This document shows positions 1 through 41,357 of a DNA stretch of 64,000 nt, one piece after another; the first letter of the stretch is position 1, and each line of letters starts with the position of its first letter. The notes under the pieces are model-generated. The model made no database searches, had not been told where the DNA came from, and saw nothing but the letters and a program-made list of their open reading frames with translations. The translations under genes were made by a program, and so were the position numbers. This DNA is from Peronospora farinosa (taxonomy: Eukaryota > Oomycota > Peronosporomycetes > Peronosporales > Peronosporaceae). Location of the stretch: NCBI GenBank assembly GCA_947646735.1, contig CANTFK010000985.1, forward strand, positions 62,001 through 126,000, read 5' to 3'.

Positions 1-115
1 TGATTCGCTGTTGATGGCTGCAGCATATGCCGCAAGTGATGAGCCTGTCGATATCTATCAATCCAGCCGCTAATGGACGCCTAGCGGTCGCAAGCAATGA
101 GCTACATAAGTGTCG

Positions 116-120
116 AAAAA
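116..120 (-). terminator. Pol III T-run terminator of array copy 1 (recurs in every unit)
   Basis: On the minus strand five consecutive T lie 17 nt beyond the tRNA discriminator base. This is the usual RNA polymerase III stop signal, and the same run recurs at the same offset in every unit, so each unit looks like a self-contained transcription unit. Confidence 0.7.
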
Positions 121-137
121 GACCAGCTCCAACAACA

Positions 138-209
138 GGGCCTTGCCGGAGATCGAATCCGGGACCTCTCGCACCCTAAGCGAGAATCATACCACTAGAC
201 CACAAGGCC
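138..209 (-). tRNA. tRNA-Pro(AGG), array copy 1
   Basis: The minus strand folds into a full cloverleaf of 72 nt including a C73 discriminator, typical for eukaryotic tRNA-Pro. The acceptor stem GGCCTTG/CAAGGCC is perfect, the anticodon stem CTCGC/GCGAG is perfect, and the loop TTAGGGT carries anticodon AGG. The T arm is CCGGA-TTCGATC-TCCGG. The A box (TGGTCTAGTGG) is canonical. The B box departs from consensus because the normally near-invariant G53-C61 pair is A53-T61 in every copy. There is no intron. C29-G41 is intact in this copy. Confidence 0.96.
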
Positions 210-536
210 ACGCAAACCTATTTACACGCCCACATGTTCCGCCGCCAGCATGCACTCTACGCACTTCACATATGCGTCACGACCCTCTTCATATGCTTTA
301 CCTTCCAATACGGCGGCATACCCACACTCGTCACTCCTTTTCGGTCCGTCATGGTGGTCCTACGCGTCAAAGCCTTCTCGTCACTGTGCCATCTCTTTCT
401 GATTCGCTGTTGATGGCTGCAGCATATGCCGCAAGTGATGAGCCTGTCGATATCTATCAATCCAGCCGCTAATGGACGCCTAGCGGTCGCAAGCAATGAG
501 CTACATAAGTGTCGAAAAAGACCAGCTCCAACAACA

Positions 537-608
537 GGGCCTTGCCGGAGATCGAATCCGGGACCTCTCGCACCCTAAGCGAGAATCATACCACTAGACC
601 ACAAGGCC
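537..608 (-). tRNA. tRNA-Pro(AGG), array copy 2
   Basis: Same as copy 1; C29-G41 intact. Confidence 0.95.
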
Positions 609-935
609 ACGCAAACCTATTTACACGCCCACATGTTCCGCCGCCAGCATGCACTCTACGCACTTCACATATGCGTCACGACCCTCTTCATATGCTTTAC
701 CTTCCAATACGGCGGCATACCCACACTCGTCACTCCTTTTCGGTCCGTCATGGTGGTCCTACGCGTCAAAGCCTTCTCGTCACTGTGCCATCTCTTTCTG
801 ATTCGCTGTTGATGGCTGCAGCATATGCCGCAAGTGATGAGCCTGTCGATATCTATCAATCCAGCCGCTAATGGACGCCTAGCGGTCGCAAGCAATGAGC
901 TACATAAGTGTCGAAAAAGACCAGCTCCAACAACA

Positions 936-1007
936 GGGCCTTGCCGGAGATCGAATCCGGGACCTCTCGCACCCTAAGCGAGAATCATACCACTAGACCA
1001 CAAGGCC
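936..1007 (-). tRNA. tRNA-Pro(AGG), array copy 3
   Basis: C29-G41 intact. Confidence 0.95.
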
Positions 1008-1334
1008 ACGCAAACCTATTTACACGCCCACATGTTCCGCCGCCAGCATGCACTCTACGCACTTCACATATGCGTCACGACCCTCTTCATATGCTTTACC
1101 TTCCAATACGGCGGCATACCCACACTCGTCACTCCTTTTCGGTCCGTCATGGTGGTCCTACGCGTCAAAGCCTTCTCGTCACTGTGCCATCTCTTTCTGA
1201 TTCGCTGTTGATGGCTGCAGCATATGCCGCAAGTGATGAGCCTGTCGATATCTATCAATCCAGCCGCTAATGGACGCCTAGCGGTCGCAAGCAATGAGCT
1301 ACATAAGTGTCGAAAAAGACCAGCTCCAACAACA

Positions 1335-1406
1335 GGGCCTTGCCGGAGATCGAATCCGGGACCTCTCGCACCCTAAGCGAGAATCATACCACTAGACCAC
1401 AAGGCC
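1335..1406 (-). tRNA. tRNA-Pro(AGG), array copy 4
   Basis: C29-G41 intact. Confidence 0.95.
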
Positions 1407-1733
1407 ACGCAAACCTATTTACACGCCCACATGTTCCGCCGCCAGCATGCACTCTACGCACTTCACATATGCGTCACGACCCTCTTCATATGCTTTACCT
1501 TCCAATACGGCGGCATACCCACACTCGTCACTCCTTTTCGGTCCGTCATGGTGGTCCTACGCGTCAAAGCCTTCTCGTCACTGTGCCATCTCTTTCTGAT
1601 TCGCTGTTGATGGCTGCAGCATATGCCGCAAGTGATGAGCCTGTCGATATCTATCAATCCAGCCGCTAATGGACGCCTAGCGGTCGCAAGCAATGAGCTA
1701 CATAAGTGTCGAAAAAGACCAGCTCCAACAACA

Positions 1734-1805
1734 GGGCCTTGCCGGAGATCGAATCCGGGACCTCTCGCACCCTAAGCGAGAATCATACCACTAGACCACA
1801 AGGCC
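1734..1805 (-). tRNA. tRNA-Pro(AGG), array copy 5
   Basis: C29-G41 intact. Confidence 0.95.
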
Positions 1806-2132
1806 ACGCAAACCTATTTACACGCCCACATGTTCCGCCGCCAGCATGCACTCTACGCACTTCACATATGCGTCACGACCCTCTTCATATGCTTTACCTT
1901 CCAATACGGCGGCATACCCACACTCGTCACTCCTTTTCGGTCCGTCATGGTGGTCCTACGCGTCAAAGCCTTCTCGTCACTGTGCCATCTCTTTCTGATT
2001 CGCTGTTGATGGCTGCAGCATATGCCGCAAGTGATGAGCCTGTCGATATCTATCAATCCAGCCGCTAATGGACGCCTAGCGGTCGCAAGCAATGAGCTAC
2101 ATAAGTGTCGAAAAAGACCAGCTCCAACAACA

Positions 2133-2204
2133 GGGCCTTGCCGGAGATCGAATCCGGGACCTCTCGCACCCTAAGCGAGAATCATACCACTAGACCACAA
2201 GGCC
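2133..2204 (-). tRNA. tRNA-Pro(AGG), array copy 6
   Basis: C29-G41 intact. Confidence 0.95.
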
Positions 2205-2531
2205 ACGCAAACCTATTTACACGCCCACATGTTCCGCCGCCAGCATGCACTCTACGCACTTCACATATGCGTCACGACCCTCTTCATATGCTTTACCTTC
2301 CAATACGGCGGCATACCCACACTCGTCACTCCTTTTCGGTCCGTCATGGTGGTCCTACGCGTCAAAGCCTTCTCGTCACTGTGCCATCTCTTTCTGATTC
2401 GCTGTTGATGGCTGCAGCATATGCCGCAAGTGATGAGCCTGTCGATATCTATCAATCCAGCCGCTAATGGACGCCTAGCGGTCGCAAGCAATGAGCTACA
2501 TAAGTGTCGAAAAAGACCAGCTCCAACAACA

Positions 2532-2603
2532 GGGCCTTGCCGGAGATCGAATCCGGGACCTCTCGCACCCTAAGCGAGAATCATACCACTAGACCACAAG
2601 GCC
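2532..2603 (-). tRNA. tRNA-Pro(AGG), array copy 7
   Basis: C29-G41 intact. Confidence 0.95.
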
Positions 2604-2930
2604 ACGCAAACCTATTTACACGCCCACATGTTCCGCCGCCAGCATGCACTCTACGCACTTCACATATGCGTCACGACCCTCTTCATATGCTTTACCTTCC
2701 AATACGGCGGCATACCCACACTCGTCACTCCTTTTCGGTCCGTCATGGTGGTCCTACGCGTCAAAGCCTTCTCGTCACTGTGCCATCTCTTTCTGATTCG
2801 CTGTTGATGGCTGCAGCATATGCCGCAAGTGATGAGCCTGTCGATATCTATCAATCCAGCCGCTAATGGACGCCTAGCGGTCGCAAGCAATGAGCTACAT
2901 AAGTGTCGAAAAAGACCAGCTCCAACAACA

Positions 2931-3002
2931 GGGCCTTGCCGGAGATCGAATCCGGGACCTCTTGCACCCTAAGCGAGAATCATACCACTAGACCACAAGG
3001 CC
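2931..3002 (-). tRNA. tRNA-Pro(AGG), array copy 8, stem variant
   Basis: First copy with the plus-strand C-to-T change (here at 2963) that makes position 41 an A, giving a C29-A41 mismatch in the middle of the anticodon stem. Otherwise identical to copy 1. Confidence 0.9.
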
Positions 3003-3329
3003 ACGCAAACCTATTTACACGCCCACATGTTCCGCCGCCAGCATGCACTCTACGCACTTCACATATGCGTCACGACCCTCTTCATATGCTTTACCTTCCA
3101 ATACGGCGGCATACCCACACTCGTCACTCCTTTTCGGTCCGTCATGGTGGTCCTACGCGTCAAAGCCTTCTCGTCACTGTGCCATCTCTTTCTGATTCGC
3201 TGTTGATGGCTGCAGCATATGCCGCAAGTGATGAGCCTGTCGATATCTATCAATCCAGCCGCTAATGGACGCCTAGCGGTCGCAAGCAATGAGCTACATA
3301 AGTGTCGAAAAAGACCAGCTCCAACAACA

Positions 3330-3401
3330 GGGCCTTGCCGGAGATCGAATCCGGGACCTCTCGCACCCTAAGCGAGAATCATACCACTAGACCACAAGGC
3401 C
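3330..3401 (-). tRNA. tRNA-Pro(AGG), array copy 9
   Basis: C29-G41 intact. Confidence 0.95.
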
Positions 3402-3728
3402 ACGCAAACCTATTTACACGCCCACATGTTCCGCCGCCAGCATGCACTCTACGCACTTCACATATGCGTCACGACCCTCTTCATATGCTTTACCTTCCAA
3501 TACGGCGGCATACCCACACTCGTCACTCCTTTTCGGTCCGTCATGGTGGTCCTACGCGTCAAAGCCTTCTCGTCACTGTGCCATCTCTTTCTGATTCGCT
3601 GTTGATGGCTGCAGCATATGCCGCAAGTGATGAGCCTGTCGATATCTATCAATCCAGCCGCTAATGGACGCCTAGCGGTCGCAAGCAATGAGCTACATAA
3701 GTGTCGAAAAAGACCAGCTCCAACAACA

Positions 3729-3800
3729 GGGCCTTGCCGGAGATCGAATCCGGGACCTCTTGCACCCTAAGCGAGAATCATACCACTAGACCACAAGGCC
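3729..3800 (-). tRNA. tRNA-Pro(AGG), array copy 10, stem variant
   Basis: C29-A41 mismatch. Confidence 0.9.
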
Positions 3801-4127
3801 ACGCAAACCTATTTACACGCCCACATGTTCCGCCGCCAGCATGCACTCTACGCACTTCACATATGCGTCACGACCCTCTTCATATGCTTTACCTTCCAAT
3901 ACGGCGGCATACCCACACTCGTCACTCCTTTTCGGTCCGTCATGGTGGTCCTACGCGTCAAAGCCTTCTCGTCACTGTGCCATCTCTTTCTGATTCGCTG
4001 TTGATGGCTGCAGCATATGCCGCAAGTGATGAGCCTGTCGATATCTATCAATCCAGCCGCTAATGGACGCCTAGCGGTCGCAAGCAATGAGCTACATAAG
4101 TGTCGAAAAAGACCAGCTCCAACAACA

Positions 4128-4199
4128 GGGCCTTGCCGGAGATCGAATCCGGGACCTCTCGCACCCTAAGCGAGAATCATACCACTAGACCACAAGGCC
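4128..4199 (-). tRNA. tRNA-Pro(AGG), array copy 11
   Basis: C29-G41 intact. Confidence 0.95.
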
Positions 4200-4526
4200 A
4201 CGCAAACCTATTTACACGCCCACATGTTCCGCCGCCAGCATGCACTCTACGCACTTCACATATGCGTCACGACCCTCTTCATATGCTTTACCTTCCAATA
4301 CGGCGGCATACCCACACTCGTCACTCCTTTTCGGTCCGTCATGGTGGTCCTACGCGTCAAAGCCTTCTCGTCACTGTGCCATCTCTTTCTGATTCGCTGT
4401 TGATGGCTGCAGCATATGCCGCAAGTGATGAGCCTGTCGATATCTATCAATCCAGCCGCTAATGGACGCCTAGCGGTCGCAAGCAATGAGCTACATAAGT
4501 GTCGAAAAAGACCAGCTCCAACAACA

Positions 4527-4598
4527 GGGCCTTGCCGGAGATCGAATCCGGGACCTCTTGCACCCTAAGCGAGAATCATACCACTAGACCACAAGGCC
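4527..4598 (-). tRNA. tRNA-Pro(AGG), array copy 12, stem variant
   Basis: C29-A41 mismatch; its unit also has the G-to-C spacer variant at 4863. Confidence 0.9.
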
Positions 4599-4925
4599 AC
4601 GCAAACCTATTTACACGCCCACATGTTCCGCCGCCAGCATGCACTCTACGCACTTCACATATGCGTCACGACCCTCTTCATATGCTTTACCTTCCAATAC
4701 GGCGGCATACCCACACTCGTCACTCCTTTTCGGTCCGTCATGGTGGTCCTACGCGTCAAAGCCTTCTCGTCACTGTGCCATCTCTTTCTGATTCGCTGTT
4801 GATGGCTGCAGCATATGCCGCAAGTGATGAGCCTGTCGATATCTATCAATCCAGCCGCTAATCGACGCCTAGCGGTCGCAAGCAATGAGCTACATAAGTG
4901 TCGAAAAAGACCAGCTCCAACAACA

Positions 4926-4997
4926 GGGCCTTGCCGGAGATCGAATCCGGGACCTCTTGCACCCTAAGCGAGAATCATACCACTAGACCACAAGGCC
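4926..4997 (-). tRNA. tRNA-Pro(AGG), array copy 13, stem variant
   Basis: C29-A41 mismatch. Confidence 0.9.
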
Positions 4998-5324
4998 ACG
5001 CAAACCTATTTACACGCCCACATGTTCCGCCGCCAGCATGCACTCTACGCACTTCACATATGCGTCACGACCCTCTTCATATGCTTTACCTTCCAATACG
5101 GCGGCATACCCACACTCGTCACTCCTTTTCGGTCCGTCATGGTGGTCCTACGCGTCAAAGCCTTCTCGTCACTGTGCCATCTCTTTCTGATTCGCTGTTG
5201 ATGGCTGCAGCATATGCCGCAAGTGATGAGCCTGTCGATATCTATCAATCCAGCCGCTAATGGACGCCTAGCGGTCGCAAGCAATGAGCTACATAAGTGT
5301 CGAAAAAGACCAGCTCCAACAACA

Positions 5325-5396
5325 GGGCCTTGCCGGAGATCGAATCCGGGACCTCTCGCACCCTAAGCGAGAATCATACCACTAGACCACAAGGCC
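5325..5396 (-). tRNA. tRNA-Pro(AGG), array copy 14
   Basis: C29-G41 intact. Confidence 0.95.
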
Positions 5397-5723
5397 ACGC
5401 AAACCTATTTACACGCCCACATGTTCCGCCGCCAGCATGCACTCTACGCACTTCACATATGCGTCACGACCCTCTTCATATGCTTTACCTTCCAATACGG
5501 CGGCATACCCACACTCGTCACTCCTTTTCGGTCCGTCATGGTGGTCCTACGCGTCAAAGCCTTCTCGTCACTGTGCCATCTCTTTCTGATTCGCTGTTGA
5601 TGGCTGCAGCATATGCCGCAAGTGATGAGCCTGTCGATATCTATCAATCCAGCCGCTAATGGACGCCTAGCGGTCGCAAGCAATGAGCTACATAAGTGTC
5701 GAAAAAGACCAGCTCCAACAACA

Positions 5724-5795
5724 GGGCCTTGCCGGAGATCGAATCCGGGACCTCTTGCACCCTAAGCGAGAATCATACCACTAGACCACAAGGCC
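5724..5795 (-). tRNA. tRNA-Pro(AGG), array copy 15, stem variant
   Basis: C29-A41 mismatch; first of a run of seven variant copies. Confidence 0.9.
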
Positions 5796-6122
5796 ACGCA
5801 AACCTATTTACACGCCCACATGTTCCGCCGCCAGCATGCACTCTACGCACTTCACATATGCGTCACGACCCTCTTCATATGCTTTACCTTCCAATACGGC
5901 GGCATACCCACACTCGTCACTCCTTTTCGGTCCGTCATGGTGGTCCTACGCGTCAAAGCCTTCTCGTCACTGTGCCATCTCTTTCTGATTCGCTGTTGAT
6001 GGCTGCAGCATATGCCGCAAGTGATGAGCCTGTCGATATCTATCAATCCAGCCGCTAATGGACGCCTAGCGGTCGCAAGCAATGAGCTACATAAGTGTCG
6101 AAAAAGACCAGCTCCAACAACA

Positions 6123-6194
6123 GGGCCTTGCCGGAGATCGAATCCGGGACCTCTTGCACCCTAAGCGAGAATCATACCACTAGACCACAAGGCC
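6123..6194 (-). tRNA. tRNA-Pro(AGG), array copy 16, stem variant
   Basis: C29-A41 mismatch. Confidence 0.9.
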
Positions 6195-6521
6195 ACGCAA
6201 ACCTATTTACACGCCCACATGTTCCGCCGCCAGCATGCACTCTACGCACTTCACATATGCGTCACGACCCTCTTCATATGCTTTACCTTCCAATACGGCG
6301 GCATACCCACACTCGTCACTCCTTTTCGGTCCGTCATGGTGGTCCTACGCGTCAAAGCCTTCTCGTCACTGTGCCATCTCTTTCTGATTCGCTGTTGATG
6401 GCTGCAGCATATGCCGCAAGTGATGAGCCTGTCGATATCTATCAATCCAGCCGCTAATGGACGCCTAGCGGTCGCAAGCAATGAGCTACATAAGTGTCGA
6501 AAAAGACCAGCTCCAACAACA

Positions 6522-6593
6522 GGGCCTTGCCGGAGATCGAATCCGGGACCTCTTGCACCCTAAGCGAGAATCATACCACTAGACCACAAGGCC
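6522..6593 (-). tRNA. tRNA-Pro(AGG), array copy 17, stem variant
   Basis: C29-A41 mismatch. Confidence 0.9.
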
Positions 6594-6920
6594 ACGCAAA
6601 CCTATTTACACGCCCACATGTTCCGCCGCCAGCATGCACTCTACGCACTTCACATATGCGTCACGACCCTCTTCATATGCTTTACCTTCCAATACGGCGG
6701 CATACCCACACTCGTCACTCCTTTTCGGTCCGTCATGGTGGTCCTACGCGTCAAAGCCTTCTCGTCACTGTGCCATCTCTTTCTGATTCGCTGTTGATGG
6801 CTGCAGCATATGCCGCAAGTGATGAGCCTGTCGATATCTATCAATCCAGCCGCTAATGGACGCCTAGCGGTCGCAAGCAATGAGCTACATAAGTGTCGAA
6901 AAAGACCAGCTCCAACAACA

Positions 6921-6992
6921 GGGCCTTGCCGGAGATCGAATCCGGGACCTCTTGCACCCTAAGCGAGAATCATACCACTAGACCACAAGGCC
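6921..6992 (-). tRNA. tRNA-Pro(AGG), array copy 18, stem variant
   Basis: C29-A41 mismatch; unit has the spacer G-to-C variant at 7257. Confidence 0.9.
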
Positions 6993-7319
6993 ACGCAAAC
7001 CTATTTACACGCCCACATGTTCCGCCGCCAGCATGCACTCTACGCACTTCACATATGCGTCACGACCCTCTTCATATGCTTTACCTTCCAATACGGCGGC
7101 ATACCCACACTCGTCACTCCTTTTCGGTCCGTCATGGTGGTCCTACGCGTCAAAGCCTTCTCGTCACTGTGCCATCTCTTTCTGATTCGCTGTTGATGGC
7201 TGCAGCATATGCCGCAAGTGATGAGCCTGTCGATATCTATCAATCCAGCCGCTAATCGACGCCTAGCGGTCGCAAGCAATGAGCTACATAAGTGTCGAAA
7301 AAGACCAGCTCCAACAACA

Positions 7320-7391
7320 GGGCCTTGCCGGAGATCGAATCCGGGACCTCTTGCACCCTAAGCGAGAATCATACCACTAGACCACAAGGCC
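7320..7391 (-). tRNA. tRNA-Pro(AGG), array copy 19, stem variant
   Basis: C29-A41 mismatch. Confidence 0.9.
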
Positions 7392-7718
7392 ACGCAAACC
7401 TATTTACACGCCCACATGTTCCGCCGCCAGCATGCACTCTACGCACTTCACATATGCGTCACGACCCTCTTCATATGCTTTACCTTCCAATACGGCGGCA
7501 TACCCACACTCGTCACTCCTTTTCGGTCCGTCATGGTGGTCCTACGCGTCAAAGCCTTCTCGTCACTGTGCCATCTCTTTCTGATTCGCTGTTGATGGCT
7601 GCAGCATATGCCGCAAGTGATGAGCCTGTCGATATCTATCAATCCAGCCGCTAATGGACGCCTAGCGGTCGCAAGCAATGAGCTACATAAGTGTCGAAAA
7701 AGACCAGCTCCAACAACA

Positions 7719-7790
7719 GGGCCTTGCCGGAGATCGAATCCGGGACCTCTTGCACCCTAAGCGAGAATCATACCACTAGACCACAAGGCC
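7719..7790 (-). tRNA. tRNA-Pro(AGG), array copy 20, stem variant
   Basis: C29-A41 mismatch. Confidence 0.9.
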
Positions 7791-8117
7791 ACGCAAACCT
7801 ATTTACACGCCCACATGTTCCGCCGCCAGCATGCACTCTACGCACTTCACATATGCGTCACGACCCTCTTCATATGCTTTACCTTCCAATACGGCGGCAT
7901 ACCCACACTCGTCACTCCTTTTCGGTCCGTCATGGTGGTCCTACGCGTCAAAGCCTTCTCGTCACTGTGCCATCTCTTTCTGATTCGCTGTTGATGGCTG
8001 CAGCATATGCCGCAAGTGATGAGCCTGTCGATATCTATCAATCCAGCCGCTAATGGACGCCTAGCGGTCGCAAGCAATGAGCTACATAAGTGTCGAAAAA
8101 GACCAGCTCCAACAACA

Positions 8118-8189
8118 GGGCCTTGCCGGAGATCGAATCCGGGACCTCTTGCACCCTAAGCGAGAATCATACCACTAGACCACAAGGCC
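8118..8189 (-). tRNA. tRNA-Pro(AGG), array copy 21, stem variant
   Basis: C29-A41 mismatch. Confidence 0.9.
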
Positions 8190-8516
8190 ACGCAAACCTA
8201 TTTACACGCCCACATGTTCCGCCGCCAGCATGCACTCTACGCACTTCACATATGCGTCACGACCCTCTTCATATGCTTTACCTTCCAATACGGCGGCATA
8301 CCCACACTCGTCACTCCTTTTCGGTCCGTCATGGTGGTCCTACGCGTCAAAGCCTTCTCGTCACTGTGCCATCTCTTTCTGATTCGCTGTTGATGGCTGC
8401 AGCATATGCCGCAAGTGATGAGCCTGTCGATATCTATCAATCCAGCCGCTAATGGACGCCTAGCGGTCGCAAGCAATGAGCTACATAAGTGTCGAAAAAG
8501 ACCAGCTCCAACAACA

Positions 8517-8588
8517 GGGCCTTGCCGGAGATCGAATCCGGGACCTCTCGCACCCTAAGCGAGAATCATACCACTAGACCACAAGGCC
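8517..8588 (-). tRNA. tRNA-Pro(AGG), array copy 22
   Basis: C29-G41 intact. Confidence 0.95.
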
Positions 8589-8915
8589 ACGCAAACCTAT
8601 TTACACGCCCACATGTTCCGCCGCCAGCATGCACTCTACGCACTTCACATATGCGTCACGACCCTCTTCATATGCTTTACCTTCCAATACGGCGGCATAC
8701 CCACACTCGTCACTCCTTTTCGGTCCGTCATGGTGGTCCTACGCGTCAAAGCCTTCTCGTCACTGTGCCATCTCTTTCTGATTCGCTGTTGATGGCTGCA
8801 GCATATGCCGCAAGTGATGAGCCTGTCGATATCTATCAATCCAGCCGCTAATGGACGCCTAGCGGTCGCAAGCAATGAGCTACATAAGTGTCGAAAAAGA
8901 CCAGCTCCAACAACA

Positions 8916-8987
8916 GGGCCTTGCCGGAGATCGAATCCGGGACCTCTTGCACCCTAAGCGAGAATCATACCACTAGACCACAAGGCC
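8916..8987 (-). tRNA. tRNA-Pro(AGG), array copy 23, stem variant
   Basis: C29-A41 mismatch. Confidence 0.9.
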
Positions 8988-9314
8988 ACGCAAACCTATT
9001 TACACGCCCACATGTTCCGCCGCCAGCATGCACTCTACGCACTTCACATATGCGTCACGACCCTCTTCATATGCTTTACCTTCCAATACGGCGGCATACC
9101 CACACTCGTCACTCCTTTTCGGTCCGTCATGGTGGTCCTACGCGTCAAAGCCTTCTCGTCACTGTGCCATCTCTTTCTGATTCGCTGTTGATGGCTGCAG
9201 CATATGCCGCAAGTGATGAGCCTGTCGATATCTATCAATCCAGCCGCTAATGGACGCCTAGCGGTCGCAAGCAATGAGCTACATAAGTGTCGAAAAAGAC
9301 CAGCTCCAACAACA

Positions 9315-9386
9315 GGGCCTTGCCGGAGATCGAATCCGGGACCTCTTGCACCCTAAGCGAGAATCATACCACTAGACCACAAGGCC
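9315..9386 (-). tRNA. tRNA-Pro(AGG), array copy 24, stem variant
   Basis: C29-A41 mismatch. Confidence 0.9.
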
Positions 9387-9713
9387 ACGCAAACCTATTT
9401 ACACGCCCACATGTTCCGCCGCCAGCATGCACTCTACGCACTTCACATATGCGTCACGACCCTCTTCATATGCTTTACCTTCCAATACGGCGGCATACCC
9501 ACACTCGTCACTCCTTTTCGGTCCGTCATGGTGGTCCTACGCGTCAAAGCCTTCTCGTCACTGTGCCATCTCTTTCTGATTCGCTGTTGATGGCTGCAGC
9601 ATATGCCGCAAGTGATGAGCCTGTCGATATCTATCAATCCAGCCGCTAATGGACGCCTAGCGGTCGCAAGCAATGAGCTACATAAGTGTCGAAAAAGACC
9701 AGCTCCAACAACA

Positions 9714-9785
9714 GGGCCTTGCCGGAGATCGAATCCGGGACCTCTCGCACCCTAAGCGAGAATCATACCACTAGACCACAAGGCC
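9714..9785 (-). tRNA. tRNA-Pro(AGG), array copy 25
   Basis: C29-G41 intact. Confidence 0.95.
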
Positions 9786-10112
9786 ACGCAAACCTATTTA
9801 CACGCCCACATGTTCCGCCGCCAGCATGCACTCTACGCACTTCACATATGCGTCACGACCCTCTTCATATGCTTTACCTTCCAATACGGCGGCATACCCA
9901 CACTCGTCACTCCTTTTCGGTCCGTCATGGTGGTCCTACGCGTCAAAGCCTTCTCGTCACTGTGCCATCTCTTTCTGATTCGCTGTTGATGGCTGCAGCA
10001 TATGCCGCAAGTGATGAGCCTGTCGATATCTATCAATCCAGCCGCTAATGGACGCCTAGCGGTCGCAAGCAATGAGCTACATAAGTGTCGAAAAAGACCA
10101 GCTCCAACAACA

Positions 10113-10184
10113 GGGCCTTGCCGGAGATCGAATCCGGGACCTCTTGCACCCTAAGCGAGAATCATACCACTAGACCACAAGGCC
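10113..10184 (-). tRNA. tRNA-Pro(AGG), array copy 26, stem variant
   Basis: C29-A41 mismatch. Confidence 0.9.
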
Positions 10185-10511
10185 ACGCAAACCTATTTAC
10201 ACGCCCACATGTTCCGCCGCCAGCATGCACTCTACGCACTTCACATATGCGTCACGACCCTCTTCATATGCTTTACCTTCCAATACGGCGGCATACCCAC
10301 ACTCGTCACTCCTTTTCGGTCCGTCATGGTGGTCCTACGCGTCAAAGCCTTCTCGTCACTGTGCCATCTCTTTCTGATTCGCTGTTGATGGCTGCAGCAT
10401 ATGCCGCAAGTGATGAGCCTGTCGATATCTATCAATCCAGCCGCTAATGGACGCCTAGCGGTCGCAAGCAATGAGCTACATAAGTGTCGAAAAAGACCAG
10501 CTCCAACAACA

Positions 10512-10583
10512 GGGCCTTGCCGGAGATCGAATCCGGGACCTCTTGCACCCTAAGCGAGAATCATACCACTAGACCACAAGGCC
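10512..10583 (-). tRNA. tRNA-Pro(AGG), array copy 27, stem variant
   Basis: C29-A41 mismatch. Confidence 0.9.
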
Positions 10584-10910
10584 ACGCAAACCTATTTACA
10601 CGCCCACATGTTCCGCCGCCAGCATGCACTCTACGCACTTCACATATGCGTCACGACCCTCTTCATATGCTTTACCTTCCAATACGGCGGCATACCCACA
10701 CTCGTCACTCCTTTTCGGTCCGTCATGGTGGTCCTACGCGTCAAAGCCTTCTCGTCACTGTGCCATCTCTTTCTGATTCGCTGTTGATGGCTGCAGCATA
10801 TGCCGCAAGTGATGAGCCTGTCGATATCTATCAATCCAGCCGCTAATGGACGCCTAGCGGTCGCAAGCAATGAGCTACATAAGTGTCGAAAAAGACCAGC
10901 TCCAACAACA

Positions 10911-10982
10911 GGGCCTTGCCGGAGATCGAATCCGGGACCTCTTGCACCCTAAGCGAGAATCATACCACTAGACCACAAGGCC
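10911..10982 (-). tRNA. tRNA-Pro(AGG), array copy 28, stem variant
   Basis: C29-A41 mismatch. Confidence 0.9.
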
Positions 10983-11309
10983 ACGCAAACCTATTTACAC
11001 GCCCACATGTTCCGCCGCCAGCATGCACTCTACGCACTTCACATATGCGTCACGACCCTCTTCATATGCTTTACCTTCCAATACGGCGGCATACCCACAC
11101 TCGTCACTCCTTTTCGGTCCGTCATGGTGGTCCTACGCGTCAAAGCCTTCTCGTCACTGTGCCATCTCTTTCTGATTCGCTGTTGATGGCTGCAGCATAT
11201 GCCGCAAGTGATGAGCCTGTCGATATCTATCAATCCAGCCGCTAATGGACGCCTAGCGGTCGCAAGCAATGAGCTACATAAGTGTCGAAAAAGACCAGCT
11301 CCAACAACA

Positions 11310-11381
11310 GGGCCTTGCCGGAGATCGAATCCGGGACCTCTCGCACCCTAAGCGAGAATCATACCACTAGACCACAAGGCC
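11310..11381 (-). tRNA. tRNA-Pro(AGG), array copy 29
   Basis: C29-G41 intact. Confidence 0.95.
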
Positions 11382-11708
11382 ACGCAAACCTATTTACACG
11401 CCCACATGTTCCGCCGCCAGCATGCACTCTACGCACTTCACATATGCGTCACGACCCTCTTCATATGCTTTACCTTCCAATACGGCGGCATACCCACACT
11501 CGTCACTCCTTTTCGGTCCGTCATGGTGGTCCTACGCGTCAAAGCCTTCTCGTCACTGTGCCATCTCTTTCTGATTCGCTGTTGATGGCTGCAGCATATG
11601 CCGCAAGTGATGAGCCTGTCGATATCTATCAATCCAGCCGCTAATGGACGCCTAGCGGTCGCAAGCAATGAGCTACATAAGTGTCGAAAAAGACCAGCTC
11701 CAACAACA

Positions 11709-11780
11709 GGGCCTTGCCGGAGATCGAATCCGGGACCTCTTGCACCCTAAGCGAGAATCATACCACTAGACCACAAGGCC
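11709..11780 (-). tRNA. tRNA-Pro(AGG), array copy 30, stem variant
   Basis: C29-A41 mismatch. Confidence 0.9.
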
Positions 11781-12107
11781 ACGCAAACCTATTTACACGC
11801 CCACATGTTCCGCCGCCAGCATGCACTCTACGCACTTCACATATGCGTCACGACCCTCTTCATATGCTTTACCTTCCAATACGGCGGCATACCCACACTC
11901 GTCACTCCTTTTCGGTCCGTCATGGTGGTCCTACGCGTCAAAGCCTTCTCGTCACTGTGCCATCTCTTTCTGATTCGCTGTTGATGGCTGCAGCATATGC
12001 CGCAAGTGATGAGCCTGTCGATATCTATCAATCCAGCCGCTAATGGACGCCTAGCGGTCGCAAGCAATGAGCTACATAAGTGTCGAAAAAGACCAGCTCC
12101 AACAACA

Positions 12108-12179
12108 GGGCCTTGCCGGAGATCGAATCCGGGACCTCTTGCACCCTAAGCGAGAATCATACCACTAGACCACAAGGCC
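12108..12179 (-). tRNA. tRNA-Pro(AGG), array copy 31, stem variant
   Basis: C29-A41 mismatch. Confidence 0.9.
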
Positions 12180-12506
12180 ACGCAAACCTATTTACACGCC
12201 CACATGTTCCGCCGCCAGCATGCACTCTACGCACTTCACATATGCGTCACGACCCTCTTCATATGCTTTACCTTCCAATACGGCGGCATACCCACACTCG
12301 TCACTCCTTTTCGGTCCGTCATGGTGGTCCTACGCGTCAAAGCCTTCTCGTCACTGTGCCATCTCTTTCTGATTCGCTGTTGATGGCTGCAGCATATGCC
12401 GCAAGTGATGAGCCTGTCGATATCTATCAATCCAGCCGCTAATGGACGCCTAGCGGTCGCAAGCAATGAGCTACATAAGTGTCGAAAAAGACCAGCTCCA
12501 ACAACA

Positions 12507-12578
12507 GGGCCTTGCCGGAGATCGAATCCGGGACCTCTCGCACCCTAAGCGAGAATCATACCACTAGACCACAAGGCC
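12507..12578 (-). tRNA. tRNA-Pro(AGG), array copy 32
   Basis: C29-G41 intact. Confidence 0.95.
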
Positions 12579-12905
12579 ACGCAAACCTATTTACACGCCC
12601 ACATGTTCCGCCGCCAGCATGCACTCTACGCACTTCACATATGCGTCACGACCCTCTTCATATGCTTTACCTTCCAATACGGCGGCATACCCACACTCGT
12701 CACTCCTTTTCGGTCCGTCATGGTGGTCCTACGCGTCAAAGCCTTCTCGTCACTGTGCCATCTCTTTCTGATTCGCTGTTGATGGCTGCAGCATATGCCG
12801 CAAGTGATGAGCCTGTCGATATCTATCAATCCAGCCGCTAATGGACGCCTAGCGGTCGCAAGCAATGAGCTACATAAGTGTCGAAAAAGACCAGCTCCAA
12901 CAACA

Positions 12906-12977
12906 GGGCCTTGCCGGAGATCGAATCCGGGACCTCTTGCACCCTAAGCGAGAATCATACCACTAGACCACAAGGCC
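12906..12977 (-). tRNA. tRNA-Pro(AGG), array copy 33, stem variant
   Basis: C29-A41 mismatch. Confidence 0.9.
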
Positions 12978-13304
12978 ACGCAAACCTATTTACACGCCCA
13001 CATGTTCCGCCGCCAGCATGCACTCTACGCACTTCACATATGCGTCACGACCCTCTTCATATGCTTTACCTTCCAATACGGCGGCATACCCACACTCGTC
13101 ACTCCTTTTCGGTCCGTCATGGTGGTCCTACGCGTCAAAGCCTTCTCGTCACTGTGCCATCTCTTTCTGATTCGCTGTTGATGGCTGCAGCATATGCCGC
13201 AAGTGATGAGCCTGTCGATATCTATCAATCCAGCCGCTAATGGACGCCTAGCGGTCGCAAGCAATGAGCTACATAAGTGTCGAAAAAGACCAGCTCCAAC
13301 AACA

Positions 13305-13376
13305 GGGCCTTGCCGGAGATCGAATCCGGGACCTCTTGCACCCTAAGCGAGAATCATACCACTAGACCACAAGGCC
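13305..13376 (-). tRNA. tRNA-Pro(AGG), array copy 34, stem variant
   Basis: C29-A41 mismatch. Confidence 0.9.
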
Positions 13377-13703
13377 ACGCAAACCTATTTACACGCCCAC
13401 ATGTTCCGCCGCCAGCATGCACTCTACGCACTTCACATATGCGTCACGACCCTCTTCATATGCTTTACCTTCCAATACGGCGGCATACCCACACTCGTCA
13501 CTCCTTTTCGGTCCGTCATGGTGGTCCTACGCGTCAAAGCCTTCTCGTCACTGTGCCATCTCTTTCTGATTCGCTGTTGATGGCTGCAGCATATGCCGCA
13601 AGTGATGAGCCTGTCGATATCTATCAATCCAGCCGCTAATGGACGCCTAGCGGTCGCAAGCAATGAGCTACATAAGTGTCGAAAAAGACCAGCTCCAACA
13701 ACA

Positions 13704-13775
13704 GGGCCTTGCCGGAGATCGAATCCGGGACCTCTTGCACCCTAAGCGAGAATCATACCACTAGACCACAAGGCC
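13704..13775 (-). tRNA. tRNA-Pro(AGG), array copy 35, stem variant
   Basis: C29-A41 mismatch. Confidence 0.9.
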
Positions 13776-14102
13776 ACGCAAACCTATTTACACGCCCACA
13801 TGTTCCGCCGCCAGCATGCACTCTACGCACTTCACATATGCGTCACGACCCTCTTCATATGCTTTACCTTCCAATACGGCGGCATACCCACACTCGTCAC
13901 TCCTTTTCGGTCCGTCATGGTGGTCCTACGCGTCAAAGCCTTCTCGTCACTGTGCCATCTCTTTCTGATTCGCTGTTGATGGCTGCAGCATATGCCGCAA
14001 GTGATGAGCCTGTCGATATCTATCAATCCAGCCGCTAATGGACGCCTAGCGGTCGCAAGCAATGAGCTACATAAGTGTCGAAAAAGACCAGCTCCAACAA
14101 CA

Positions 14103-14174
14103 GGGCCTTGCCGGAGATCGAATCCGGGACCTCTCGCACCCTAAGCGAGAATCATACCACTAGACCACAAGGCC
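14103..14174 (-). tRNA. tRNA-Pro(AGG), array copy 36
   Basis: C29-G41 intact. Confidence 0.95.
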
Positions 14175-14501
14175 ACGCAAACCTATTTACACGCCCACAT
14201 GTTCCGCCGCCAGCATGCACTCTACGCACTTCACATATGCGTCACGACCCTCTTCATATGCTTTACCTTCCAATACGGCGGCATACCCACACTCGTCACT
14301 CCTTTTCGGTCCGTCATGGTGGTCCTACGCGTCAAAGCCTTCTCGTCACTGTGCCATCTCTTTCTGATTCGCTGTTGATGGCTGCAGCATATGCCGCAAG
14401 TGATGAGCCTGTCGATATCTATCAATCCAGCCGCTAATGGACGCCTAGCGGTCGCAAGCAATGAGCTACATAAGTGTCGAAAAAGACCAGCTCCAACAAC
14501 A

Positions 14502-14573
14502 GGGCCTTGCCGGAGATCGAATCCGGGACCTCTCGCACCCTAAGCGAGAATCATACCACTAGACCACAAGGCC
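14502..14573 (-). tRNA. tRNA-Pro(AGG), array copy 37
   Basis: C29-G41 intact. Confidence 0.95.
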
Positions 14574-14900
14574 ACGCAAACCTATTTACACGCCCACATG
14601 TTCCGCCGCCAGCATGCACTCTACGCACTTCACATATGCGTCACGACCCTCTTCATATGCTTTACCTTCCAATACGGCGGCATACCCACACTCGTCACTC
14701 CTTTTCGGTCCGTCATGGTGGTCCTACGCGTCAAAGCCTTCTCGTCACTGTGCCATCTCTTTCTGATTCGCTGTTGATGGCTGCAGCATATGCCGCAAGT
14801 GATGAGCCTGTCGATATCTATCAATCCAGCCGCTAATGGACGCCTAGCGGTCGCAAGCAATGAGCTACATAAGTGTCGAAAAAGACCAGCTCCAACAACA

Positions 14901-14972
14901 GGGCCTTGCCGGAGATCGAATCCGGGACCTCTTGCACCCTAAGCGAGAATCATACCACTAGACCACAAGGCC
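14901..14972 (-). tRNA. tRNA-Pro(AGG), array copy 38, stem variant
   Basis: C29-A41 mismatch; the last variant copy before the array edge. Confidence 0.9.
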
Positions 14973-15299
14973 ACGCAAACCTATTTACACGCCCACATGT
15001 TCCGCCGCCAGCATGCACTCTACGCACTTCACATATGCGTCACGACCCTCTTCATATGCTTTACCTTCCAATACGGCGGCATACCCACACTCGTCACTCC
15101 TTTTCGGTCCGTCATGGTGGTCCTACGCGTCAAAGCCTTCTCGTCACTGTGCCATCTCTTTCTGATTCGCTGTTGATGGCTGCAGCATATGCCGCAAGTG
15201 ATGAGCCTGTCGATATCTATCAATCCAGCCGCTAATGGACGCCTAGCGGTCGCAAGCAATGAGCTACATAAGTGTCGAAAAAGACCAGCTCCAACAACA

Positions 15300-15371
15300 G
15301 GGCCTTGCCGGAGATCGAATCCGGGACCTCTCGCACCCTAAGCGAGAATCATACCACTAGACCACAAGGCC
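15300..15371 (-). tRNA. tRNA-Pro(AGG), array copy 39
   Basis: C29-G41 intact; the spacer to its right carries the first edge-type substitutions and the +1 insertion. Confidence 0.95.
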
Positions 15372-15699
15372 ACGCAAACCTATTTACACGCCCACATGTT
15401 CCGCCGCCAGCATGCACTCTACGCACTTCACATATGCGTCACGACCCTCCTTCCTATGCTTTACCTTCCAATACGGCGGCATACCCACACTAGGCACTCC
15501 TTTTCGGTCCGTCATGGTGGTCCTACGCGTCAAAGCCTTCTCGTCACTGTGCCATCTCTTTCTGATTCGCTGTTGATGGCTGCAGCATATGCCGCAAGTG
15601 ATGAGCCTATCGATATCTATCAATCCAGCCGCTAATGGACGCCTAGCGGTCGCAAGCAATGAGCTACATAAGTGTCGAAAAAGACCAGCTCCAACAACA

Positions 15700-15771
15700 G
15701 GGCCTTGCCGGAGATCGAATCCGGGACCTCTCGCACCCTAAGCGAGAATCATACCACTAGACCACAAGGCC
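15700..15771 (-). tRNA. tRNA-Pro(AGG), array copy 40
   Basis: C29-G41 intact; unit is 400 bp. Confidence 0.95.
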
Positions 15772-16099
15772 ACGCAAACCTATTTACACGCCCACATGTT
15801 CCGCCGCCAGCATGCACTCTACGCACTTCACATATGCGTCACGACCCTCCTTCATATGCTTTACCTTCCAATACGGCGGCATACCCACACTCGTCACTCC
15901 TTTTCGGTCCGTCATGGTGGTCCTACGCGTCAAAGCCTTCTCGTCACTGTGCCATCTCTTTCTGATTCGCTGTTGATGGCTGCAGCATATGCCGCAAGTG
16001 ATGAGCCTGTCGATATCTATCAATCCAGCCGCTAATCGACGCCTAGCGGTCGCAAGCAATGAGCTACATAAGTGTCGAAAAAGACCAGCTCCAACAACA

Positions 16100-16171
16100 G
16101 GGCCTTGCCGGAGATCGAATCCGGGACCTCTCGCACCCTAAGCGAGAATCATACCACTAGACCACAAGGCC
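16100..16171 (-). tRNA. tRNA-Pro(AGG), array copy 41
   Basis: C29-G41 intact; the tRNA is unchanged although the spacer on its right has several substitutions (16340-16375). Confidence 0.95.
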
Positions 16172-16499
16172 ACGCAAACCTATTTACACGCCCACATGTT
16201 CCGCCGCCAGCATGCACTCTACACACTTCACATATGCGTCACGACCCTCTTCACTATGCTTTACCTTCCAATACGGCGGCATACCCACACTCGTCACTCC
16301 TTTTCGGTCCGTCATGGTGGTCCTACGCGTCAAAGCCTTCTCTTCATTGTTCCGTCTCTTTCTGATTCGGTGTTTATGGCTGCAGCATATGCCGCAAGTG
16401 ATGAGCCTATCGATATCTATCAATCCAGCCGCTAATCGACGCCTAGCGGTCGCAAGCAATGAGCTACATAAGTGTCGAAAAAGACCAGCTCCAACAACA

Positions 16500-16571
16500 G
16501 GGCCTTGCCGGAGATCGAATCCGGGACCTCTCGCACCCTAAGCGAGAATCATACCACTAGACCACAAGGCC
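16500..16571 (-). tRNA. tRNA-Pro(AGG), array copy 42 (first in transcription direction)
   Basis: C29-G41 intact. The tRNA sequence is unchanged while its flanking spacer differs at several sites from interior units, so the tRNA part has been conserved better than the spacer. Confidence 0.95.
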
Positions 16572-16895
16572 ACGCAAACCTATTTACACGCCCACATGTT
16601 CCGCCGCCAGCATGCACTCTACACACTTCACATATGCGTCACGACCCTCCTCCCTATGCTTTACCTTCCAATAAGGCGGTATATCCACACTCGTCACTCC
16701 TTTTCGGTCCGTCATGGTGTTCCTACGCGTCAAAGCCTTCTCGTCACTGTGCCATCTCTTTCTGATTCGCTGTTGATGGCTGCAGCATATGCCGCAAGTG
16801 ATGAGCCTGTCGATATCTATCAATCCAGCCGCTAATGGACGCCTAGCGGTCGCAAGCAATGAGCTACATAAGTGTCGAAAAAGACCAGCTCCAAC

Positions 16896-17528
16896 TACAT
16901 GGCCGTTTTTGATATTGTTTACAATTTTTTTAAATGCATTGTGGTGTGTCGTGCGAGCGAATTCAACGAAGCAAATTCACTGCAATCTTCAAGAGAAGTG
17001 CATGTATGAAAGGACCCCATTAGAGTGAAATTCGGCAGATAGACTAAAATTTGCTTGTTCGCGACGTCGTCAATTGATTGTCGCAGGCTTTTCGATGACT
17101 CCGACGAATGCACCGTGCTATACATGACGCTAACGATGATGTGTACTAGAGCCCTCGAACGATTGAGGTCTTAACTAGATAAGAAAGCGCTGAAGAGAGA
17201 GGATGACGGATTTGTGTGCGAGTTTCTCCCTCCAAAGACATTCGTTTGTCGGCTTCTAAGGTGTAACAATAGGGGCAAATTTATATGGAAGGATACACAT
17301 GACTAAGGACACTGGACACTTTATCGTTCTGTGGCCCTCTACGGCGACAGCTTATGTCCTAGAGCTCGTTCGGAGTGACACACTGTAAGCAAAATCACTT
17401 TATGTCGTTGCACAGAAATATATGTCTTGGTTCAATTTGCCCGTTCAAAGTTTGATCGCAATCGATTTTGGTGTCTCACTAGATTTAGTAATTTGTTATA
17501 TGTATTTGCATGCTACGTGTCGATAGAA
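16896..17528. other. Spacer between tRNA-Pro array and tRNA-Arg
   Basis: Unique, AT-rich sequence of about 630 bp. No open frame has recognisable protein similarity and no further tRNA was seen. It retains 'ggcc' at 16901-16904, which may be the last four bases of a truncated tRNA-Pro 3' end. Confidence 0.6.
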
Positions 17529-17601
17529 GCGCGGCTGGCGCAATGGATAGCGTATCAGACTTCGAATCTGGGGGTTGCGGGTTCGAGTCCCGCGTCGCGT
17601 A
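17529..17601 (+). tRNA. tRNA-Arg(TCG)
   Basis: A 73-nt cloverleaf on the plus strand. The acceptor stem GCGCGGC/GTCGCGT has G-U wobbles at pairs 1-72 and 6-67. The D arm is GCGC-AATGGATA-GCGT, and the anticodon stem TCAGA/TCTGG encloses loop CTTCGAA with anticodon TCG (reads CGA, arginine). The T arm GCGGG-TTCGAGT-CCCGC has a canonical B box, and the discriminator is A. No intron. Single copy, in contrast to the neighbouring array and on the opposite strand. Confidence 0.95.
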
Positions 17602-17603
17602 CA

Positions 17604-17709: not shown

Positions 17710-18802
17710 ATGGCGTTCATGGCGACAGCTCGTCGCGGTCTTCGCTGCGTCTCCCGCTCGTATCTGTCCACCTCTCTACTCGCTTGTCCAGTATTGTCCA
17801 CTGCCTTTTCTTCTCAGCAGCAATGGCAATGCTTGCCATGCGGCATGAACCCTTTTTTTCTTGTCAGGCGGCATCAATAGGAGTTTTGTACGCACTAAAG
17901 TGAGTGAGCGTGCTTTGCGCCGTAAAAAGTTGCGTAAGATGAAGTGTCAAAAGGGAAACAAGGTGCCAATGATCAAGGACACATTGCGAAAACTATACAT
18001 GCGCACGCACCCTGATCTGTTTGGACGGTATCCGGAGCAACAGCGTGCAAACGAGGAGTCGTACAAGGAGCTGCTGGGCATCTTGGACGCCATTGAGAAA
18101 CATAATGTGTTCCCTCCAGCCAAGACGTTGGTACTGCCGTTTTTTCTGAAGACACCAGTAGAAGGTGAGTTCAAGGAGGTGGATCTGCAGCTGCGCACGA
18201 CTGGCGGCGCTTGCAACACGTTGGTGGAAGAGGCTTTGGGTCGGTTTTTCGACGAGTGTGGTCTTCCACAAGCATTCCAATGGGGCGAAGGAAGTTGGGG
18301 CAAAAGTGTGGGTAACGACGCAGAAGAAAACCCGAATCTGGGCTTCGACAAAGACGAAGATGAGTTGGCCACAACAAGCGAGGAACAGCTTTTTCAGTCC
18401 GAACCGGCCTTTAATCCTGATGACAGCGGCACAACGATGGAGGATGCATCGATTGAGAATGTGCTGAGTGAGCTGAATGATGTGTTTGAGATCATTGCTG
18501 CTGTGCCGTTGATGGATGAGGAGGAGTATGGTGAGTTGCGGGAGCACTTTGAAAAGGGTCAGGGGCTAGACGAGATTGATGAACGCGGCTACACGATCAA
18601 GGCAGGTACGCACAAGATTTGGAAGGGCGAACGCAAACTTAAGAACGTGACTGACGGCGTGGACACGGACTCAGCTCTCATTTTGCAGCGGATCTTGCTG
18701 CACACGCTTAACATTGAGAGAAAAGTGCGCGAGATGCTCGCAAATGGTGGTACCGACCCCGACGATGTAGATGAACCAGAAGCGAGCAACATTACCAGCT
18801 AA
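17710..18802 (+). pseudogene. TCAIM-like (DUF4460) gene, copy 1, frameshifted near the 5' end
   Basis: This is a paralogue of the intact gene at 21097. From the ATG at 17710 the frame encodes the same mitochondrial-type presequence (MAFMATARRGLRC...), but a T-run of seven (17853-17859) against six in the other copy shifts the frame and leads to a stop at the TAG near 17877. The main frame then runs open from about 17861 to 18802, with no in-frame ATG until about 17941. It carries the J-like DUF4460 region (KLYMRTHPDLFGRYPEQQ) seen at the N-terminus of human TCAIM, a mitochondrial protein. The C-terminal third is clearly different from copy 2 but still conserved in pattern (GYTIKAG, DSALILQR), which argues that the downstream part was under selection. 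It could be a recent pseudogene, a gene with an alternative downstream start, a homopolymer sequencing error, or have an unrecognised intron ending at the pyrimidine tract plus CAG at 17865-17867. Confidence 0.6.
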
Positions 18803-21096: not shown

Positions 21097-22182
21097 ATGG
21101 CGTTCATGGCGACAGCTCGTCGCGGTCTTCGCTGCGTCTCCCGCTCGTATCTGTCCACTTCCTTACCCTCTTGTCCAGTATTTTCCACTGCCTTTTCATC
21201 TCAGCAGCAATGGCAATGCTTGCCATGCAACAGGAACCCTTTTTTCTTGTCAGACGGCATCAATAGGAGTTTTGTACGCACTAAAGTGAGTGAGCGTGCT
21301 TTGCGCCGTAAAAAGTTGCGTAAGATGAAGTGTCAGAAGGGAAACAAAGTGCCAATGATCAAGGACACATTGCGAAAACTATACATGCGCACGCACCCTG
21401 ATCTGTTTGGACGGTATCCGGAGCAACAGCGTGCAAACGAGGAGTCGTACAAGGAGCTGCTGGGCATCTTGGACGCCATTGAGAAACATAATGTGTTCCC
21501 TCCAGCCAAGACGTTGGTACTGCCGTTCTTTCTGAAGACACCAGTAGAAGGTGAGTTCAAGGAGGTGGATCTGCAGCTGCGCACGACTGGCGGCGCTTGC
21601 AACACGTTGGTGGAAGAGGCTTTGGGTCGGTTTTTCGACGAGTGTGGTCTTCCACAAGCATTCCAATGGGGCGAAGGAAGTTGGGGCAAAAGTGTGGGTA
21701 AAGACGCAGAAGAAAACCCGAATCTGGGCTTCGACAAAGACGAAGACGAGTTGGCCACAACAAGCGAAGAACAGCTTTTTCAGTCGGCACCTGCTTACAA
21801 TCCTGTAGATCGACGCGCACCTGATGATCACTCTGTTGAGAAGATGCTTACAGAGTTGGACGATACTCTTCAGCTTATTGCAGCAATGCCTTACCTTGAT
21901 GAGGAGGAAGAGCAGCAACGTGCCATTAAGATGCATTTTGAGCAGGGCAAAGGCTTGGACGACCTCGAGGTTCAGGGCTACACGATTAAGGCAGGCGTGC
22001 TGATGATGTGGCAGGGTGAACGGGATCTAAACACGCTGGTCAAGAGCGTGGATGCCGACTCAGCTCTTATTCTGCAACGAGTCCTCATGCACACACTCGA
22101 CATTGAAAATAAACTGAATGAGTTTATCGTCAACGAAGGCGCTGACGATGAAGAGGATGCCACTGATGTGCAGAGCAAATAG
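21097..22182 (+). CDS. TCAIM-like (DUF4460) mitochondrial protein, copy 2 (intact)
   Basis: A 361-aa protein with an arginine/serine-rich, acid-free N-terminus (first about 30 residues) typical of a mitochondrial targeting peptide. It is followed by a basic segment (RALRRKKLRKMK) and the DUF4460 region at about residues 88-130 (LYMRTHPDLFGRYPEQQ). DUF4460 is the J-domain-like N-terminal part of TCAIM, a mitochondrial matrix protein of poorly known function in animals. The C-terminal DUF4461 part of animal TCAIM is not recognisable; instead there is an acidic, divergent tail. The first 689 bp are almost identical to copy 1 at 17710-18399, after which similarity falls abruptly. The ATG at 21097 is the first in frame and opens the presequence. 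Confidence 0.7.
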   Translation: MAFMATARRGLRCVSRSYLSTSLPSCPVFSTAFSSQQQWQCLPCNRNPFFLSDGINRSFVRTKVSERALRRKKLRKMKCQKGNKVPMIKDTLRKLYMRTHPDLFGRYPEQQRANEESYKELLGILDAIEKHNVFPPAKTLVLPFFLKTPVEGEFKEVDLQLRTTGGACNTLVEEALGRFFDECGLPQAFQWGEGSWGKSVGKDAEENPNLGFDKDEDELATTSEEQLFQSAPAYNPVDRRAPDDHSVEKMLTELDDTLQLIAAMPYLDEEEEQQRAIKMHFEQGKGLDDLEVQGYTIKAGVLMMWQGERDLNTLVKSVDADSALILQRVLMHTLDIENKLNEFIVNEGADDEEDATDVQSK

Positions 22183-30968: not shown

Positions 30969-31026
<58 letters not shown>

Positions 31027-41185: not shown

Positions 41186-41357
41186 TACAGTCATGTTGGG
41201 AAGTAGCCAGAATTACCTAGTTAGAACCTGTACAGCGAGCGTTGCACGCAAATGTAAGCAAGATGAGGCAATGCAGTTCATTCATTGTAAAAAAACGAAA
41301 GCTCGGATGCCGTGGCAGTCTAAATGTGTCGGAATCTCGTGTTTGCAAGGTCGTCTT

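Follow-up and report, generated by a model that had tools for sequence, protein, structure and literature searches.

Is a long tandem run of a single proline tRNA gene a stock of working genes or a repeat of another kind? The question is raised by the left end of a 64,000-nucleotide stretch of the Peronospora farinosa genome (hereafter the window; C265:62001-126000 in an assembly of 46.85 Mb and 274 contigs). An earlier note on this DNA had proposed an oomycete source, in agreement with a window protein whose best match is Peronospora effusa KXD40_005623 (99% identical; 87% to P. destructor). We find that the run is very probably a functional Peronospora tRNA-Pro(AGG) array, homogenised by unequal exchange or gene conversion.

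Within window positions 138-16571 ARAGORN identified 42 tRNA-Pro(AGG) genes, each on the minus strand, and Tandem Repeats Finder (TRF) reported a single array at 1-16904 with a period of 399 bp, 42.4 copies and 99% matches. From gene to gene the window has 38 steps of 399 bp followed by three of 400 bp. The array is cut by the left window edge, and ARAGORN found 49 further genes (25 + 24) leftwards on the same contig. The full array comprises 91 genes, 91/91 of them tRNA-Pro(AGG), arranged head to tail on one strand over ~36 kb (C265:42603-78571) and flanked by other sequence on either side. Its 90 steps measure 399 bp (n = 78), 400 bp (n = 7) and 395 bp (n = 5); five units have lost 4 bases, which accounts for the 395-bp spacings. 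A chance origin is ruled out by the 91 regular copies. The earlier note's tandem array of at least 42 genes in 399-bp units was thus real and understated; ARAGORN and Rfam likewise bear out the cloverleaf and the head-to-tail order. Only its right-hand end, which had been placed at 16895, moves to 16904 (TRF, alignment). The array and its right edge occupy the following positions in the window:

1..16904, minus strand: right-hand part of the tRNA-Pro(AGG) array (42 genes; 91 on the contig, C265:42603-78571), from ARAGORN, TRF and alignment.
15163..16562 (approximate unit limits), minus strand: units 39-42 of the window and 88-91 of the array, the last four, which are diverged mosaics at the right edge, from unit comparison.
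16572..16904, no strand: final partial unit at the right edge, which stops in a 5-base remnant of the gene 3' end, from alignment.

The gene is 72 bp long, and a unit consists of the gene and a 327-bp spacer. All 42 window genes pass the Rfam tRNA threshold (29 bits), with 20 scoring 52.8 and 22 scoring 47.6. A pseudogene array, an outcome that the earlier note had raised, is ruled out for the window copies by these scores. Two gene alleles are present among the 91 genes: 69 have a complete anticodon stem, and 22 have a C-A mismatch in it. Outside that position the 91 genes are identical. All mismatch alleles lie within units 57-87; the other nine genes of these units have the intact stem. The earlier note also placed promoter boxes and a terminator in each unit. 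The A box TGGTCTAGTGG agrees with what we take to be the consensus, and in the genes checked a run of five T (T5), presumably the RNA polymerase III (Pol III) terminator, lies 17 bases past the gene 3' end. In the B box GATTCGATCTC, pair 53-61 is A-U and not the usual G-C, which makes two departures from the presumed consensus. Among the longest open frames of the 399-bp unit, ATG-started stretches reach at most 75 codons. These elements are located as follows:

138..209, minus strand: tRNA-Pro(AGG), first window copy, allele with intact anticodon stem (C170), from ARAGORN; Rfam 52.8 bits.
192..202, minus strand: first-copy A box, TGGTCTAGTGG (presumed consensus), from the sequence.
149..159, minus strand: first-copy B box, GATTCGATCTC, with A-U for G-C at pair 53-61 (presumed consensus), from the sequence.
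116..120, minus strand: T5 run of the first copy, presumed Pol III terminator, from the sequence.
210..399, no strand: spacer on the 5' side of the first gene, which with 1-137 makes up the 327-bp spacer and holds all variable positions except one, from unit comparison.
2931..3002, minus strand: first window copy of the second allele (C-A mismatch in the anticodon stem; 22/91, units 57-87), from Rfam and alignment.

A pattern search of the assembly found no intact Pro(AGG) gene outside the array, within the limit that diverged genes would escape the pattern. The pattern AGGGTN5AGGTYN5TTCRA matched 92 times, 91 of them in the array and once at C73:55357-55381. How such patterns miss diverged genes is seen from a TGG/GGG pattern that matched once, where ARAGORN calls three Pro(TGG) genes around the match. 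A further pattern, TTNGGGTGCRAGAGG, matched 162 times, 91 in the array; of the other 71, the nine among the matches listed are all on C268. A search allowing three mismatches gave 227 places, the first 100 of which are listed. The copy on C73 has lost its acceptor stem, is not called by ARAGORN, and aligns to the unit over 58 bp, gene only and without spacer. We judge it degenerate because of the broken acceptor stem and the missing ARAGORN call, and not because of the silence of Rfam. At the gathering score Rfam has no match there, which is weak evidence since three ARAGORN Pro(TGG) genes on C270 are missed as well. The C73 copy is possibly a retro-copy. Within the limits of the pattern, the array apparently holds the sole intact Pro(AGG) genes of the assembly, which suggests a working gene stock and not junk.

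These searches bear on a different reading, in which the array is a tRNA-derived repeat of the short interspersed nuclear element (SINE) type, expanded in place and not made of working tRNA genes. PMC11540230 proposes this for P. effusa, where fast copy-number change and near-identity resemble transposon behaviour. Here, the unit length falls within the SINE range, and C274:350421-350705 contains a diverged remnant of the Pro(AGG) unit without a called gene, which matches at ~84% identity along 287 bp. Two pieces at that place are, however, the only spacer matches beyond C265 in a search of the assembly with the 399-bp unit (39/104 candidates scored), so that no dispersed copies are seen; the remaining listed matches outside C265 are to the gene part and lie on C268. 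The degenerate C73 copy lacks the spacer as well. Further, the full cloverleaf is retained, and Pol III transcripts that stop at the T5 run, 17 bases past the tRNA, would leave out the unit body. Working tRNA genes fit better because no other intact Pro(AGG) gene is detected by pattern, the terminator follows at once, and divergence is confined to the spacer. We regard the SINE-type origin as unlikely, and the name SINE-like does not suit the array well. The C274 piece stands alone with its gene cut off and may be left over from an old copy or array.

We compared variation in the gene with that in the spacer. Between unit 1 and unit 43, which represent the sub-arrays A and B described below, there are 19 differences, and the 72-bp gene has none of them; if all positions were equally likely to vary, the chance of 0/19 is 0.023. 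Over all units the gene has one variable position, which is 1/35 columns (P 0.008) or, by events, 1/46 (P 0.001); the 35-column and 46-event counts are rough, as they include artefacts of framing, alignment and the decayed left edge. The unit part 85-260 (the gene and ~50 bases on either side) has a single variable column, in a block picked post hoc. This comparison is relevant to the earlier note's suggestion of an unchecked satellite, a reading that we take to mean once real tRNA genes amplified by unequal exchange with no selection on number or sequence. Within a sub-array, gene and spacer are equally uniform, as pure concerted evolution gives, and the mismatch allele has spread through 22 genes. 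The absence of A/B differences from the gene and its single variable position overall point the other way. With no intact alternative Pro(AGG) gene found by pattern, at least some copies should also be needed. The suggestion is weakened on both counts, and we consider it very improbable.

The units fall into two sub-arrays, A (units 1-35) and B (units 43-87), with mosaic units at 36-42 and 88-91. Counting only units of exactly 399 bp, the mean number of differences per unit is 2.3 within A (30 units), 0.7 within B (44 units), and 20.4 between them. There are 26 or 22 distinct unit types, depending on the choice of unit cut point. In sub-array A, 15 neighbours are identical as compared to a shuffle mean of 7.4, a value reached in 0.015% of 20,000 shuffles, and this excess fits local duplication. 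Duplication of an 8-unit block in sub-array A was also considered and is unsupported (lag 8, 7 versus 5.9, 35% of shuffles). In sub-array B, lags 3 and 7 seem raised (1.5% and 0.3% of shuffles, uncorrected across 24 tests). The left edge of the array is a decayed unit with a broken gene (C265:42250-42602), and at the right edge the repeat stops in a short remnant of the gene 3' end. Judged from the sequence, the sub-arrays, mosaics and decayed edges form the pattern expected of unequal exchange, with homogenisation lost at the edges.

The same structure speaks to the idea that an assembler expanded a short array. PMC9584435 cautions that tRNA counts differ among assemblies of one species. The same paper found that the P. 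infestans counts held up by read depth, and in the present array 22-26 unit types stand in a structured order with two sub-arrays, mosaics and decayed edges. An artefact of this kind is extremely unlikely.

We propose that the functional array works as follows. Each unit would have an internal Pol III promoter and a terminator of its own and would give rise to one tRNA, which with inosine at position 34 would read CCU and CCC (and CCA). Supply of this tRNA-Pro(IGG) is, as far as the sequence can tell, the most likely function. Unequal exchange between units, together with gene conversion, would account for growth, shrinkage and uniformity, as in ribosomal DNA. Selection would hold the gene while the spacer drifts and may also act on copy number. 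The 321 proline codons in 12 window open reading frames (ORFs) comprise 88 CCT, 39 CCC, 108 CCA and 86 CCG, a sample too small to bear on dosage; the count covers 12/13 listed ORFs (41263-41931 left out), which are not verified gene models.

A second role beside translation, in which the Pol III promoters act as a block of 36 kb that organises chromatin or the position in the nucleus, is conceivable and improbable. If so, the 22 mismatch genes would be tolerated because only binding of the Pol III machinery is needed, and not the output of good tRNA. The subtelomeric element suggested by the earlier note is not shown: 42 kb of contig precede the array, and the 400 bases inspected at the contig start have no obvious telomere repeat.

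Several observations weigh against a fully functional, homogenised array. The copy number is as assembled and rests on the assembly, not on reads. Part of the array may be weak, both from the non-consensus B box (in the copies printed) and from the C-A mismatch in the anticodon stem of 22/91 genes. The contrast between gene and spacer is modest (0.023, 0.008 and 0.001 in the three counts). At lag 1, neighbour identity in sub-array B is not significant (19 versus 17.0, 31% of shuffles).

The earlier note had considered one isoacceptor at such copy number and regularity unusual in an oomycete; this does not hold, as PMC9584435 and PMC11540230 report such arrays. P. infestans has ~11 thousand tRNA genes, ~64% of them in same-gene arrays, and a further count of 7,519 tRNA genes is given along with 7,391 for one P. 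effusa assembly; unequal crossing-over is the mechanism considered for the P. infestans arrays (PMC9584435). As in the monomeric arrays of P. infestans, the Pro(AGG) array has one tRNA gene per unit of hundreds of bases, head to tail, with one genomic place for the family, near-identical copies, and variants that are grouped, often near an edge (PMC9584435). Two further P. infestans features recur in the present assembly: the Trp(CCA)-Ser(GCT) pairing, which C248 has at four places, and Gln CTG and TTG genes together, in a 179-bp unit on C247 (PMC9584435). The species, isoacceptor, unit length and copy number differ, and in P. infestans the proline expansion is mainly in the UGG family (PMC9584435).

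In P. effusa, 33-39 tRNA clusters per isolate, of 10-970 genes each, hold ~99.6% of >6,000 tRNA genes; the clusters are named SINE-like, and their changes are ascribed to non-allelic homologous recombination (PMC11540230). These clusters resemble the Pro(AGG) array in occupying a single place, in a gene more conserved than the spacer, and in sub-groups (in P. effusa >99% identical inside and 94-98% between; PMC11540230). The published example is an Arg cluster with 570 genes, 717-bp units, inversions and short ORFs (PMC11540230), whereas here the unit is 399 bp and no inversion was seen. Entamoeba also has tandem arrays built of tRNA gene units and kept homogeneous by concerted evolution; its units contain up to five genes and inter-gene short tandem repeats (PMC2652664), as compared to one gene per unit here. 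TRF at a minimum score of 50 found no short tandem repeats between the array genes in 1-16904. By unit type, grouping of variants, single place and arrayed host genome, the array is an Oomycete monomeric tRNA gene array. It is a further example of a kind already published for P. infestans and P. effusa.

Other tRNA genes in the assembly were surveyed from ARAGORN calls, from the 63 listed of 2,736 candidates in a loose Rfam search for tRNAs, and from the 100 listed of 648 places in a B-box search (reversed control, 50). A second proline array consists of 72 tRNA-Pro(CGG) genes (ARAGORN, 62 + 10) at C268:4386-45334 with steps mostly of 565-593 bp; downstream of it is a tRNA-Leu(TAG) gene (C268:47408-47486). 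At least three Pro(TGG) genes lie ~990 bp apart on C270 around 540375 (ARAGORN). The three have different sequences, carry T-A at pair 53-61, and receive no Rfam call at the gathering score. C229 contains a Lys(TTT) array, and the regularly spaced elements seen on C49 and C58 are B-box motifs, not called genes. The tRNA genes are not all arrayed. ARAGORN calls a tRNA-Arg(TCG) gene next to the array (window 17529-17602). Three other places match it closely, including two on C90 that run in opposite directions, and C36 has a weaker match. The two C90 copies are ~3 kb apart (C90:360718-363790); unlike the arrayed families, tRNA-Arg(TCG) is present in a few dispersed copies. Also beside the array, two neighbouring DUF4460 ORFs at 17939-18802 and 21097-22182 of the window are near-identical along one stretch and diverge after it, which marks a local gene duplication. 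A perfect (TC) run of 26.5 copies is found at 30973-31025.

The two published accounts disagree on what oomycete arrays are, tRNA genes in PMC9584435 and SINE-like elements in PMC11540230, and the added value of the Pro(AGG) array is the evidence that it brings to this dispute. Two sub-arrays and a spreading gene allele make it a clean case for watching the concerted evolution of Pol III genes. No intact genes of a needed tRNA family were detected outside this one array, which argues that masking such arrays as transposons would drop the cell's own tRNA genes from annotation.

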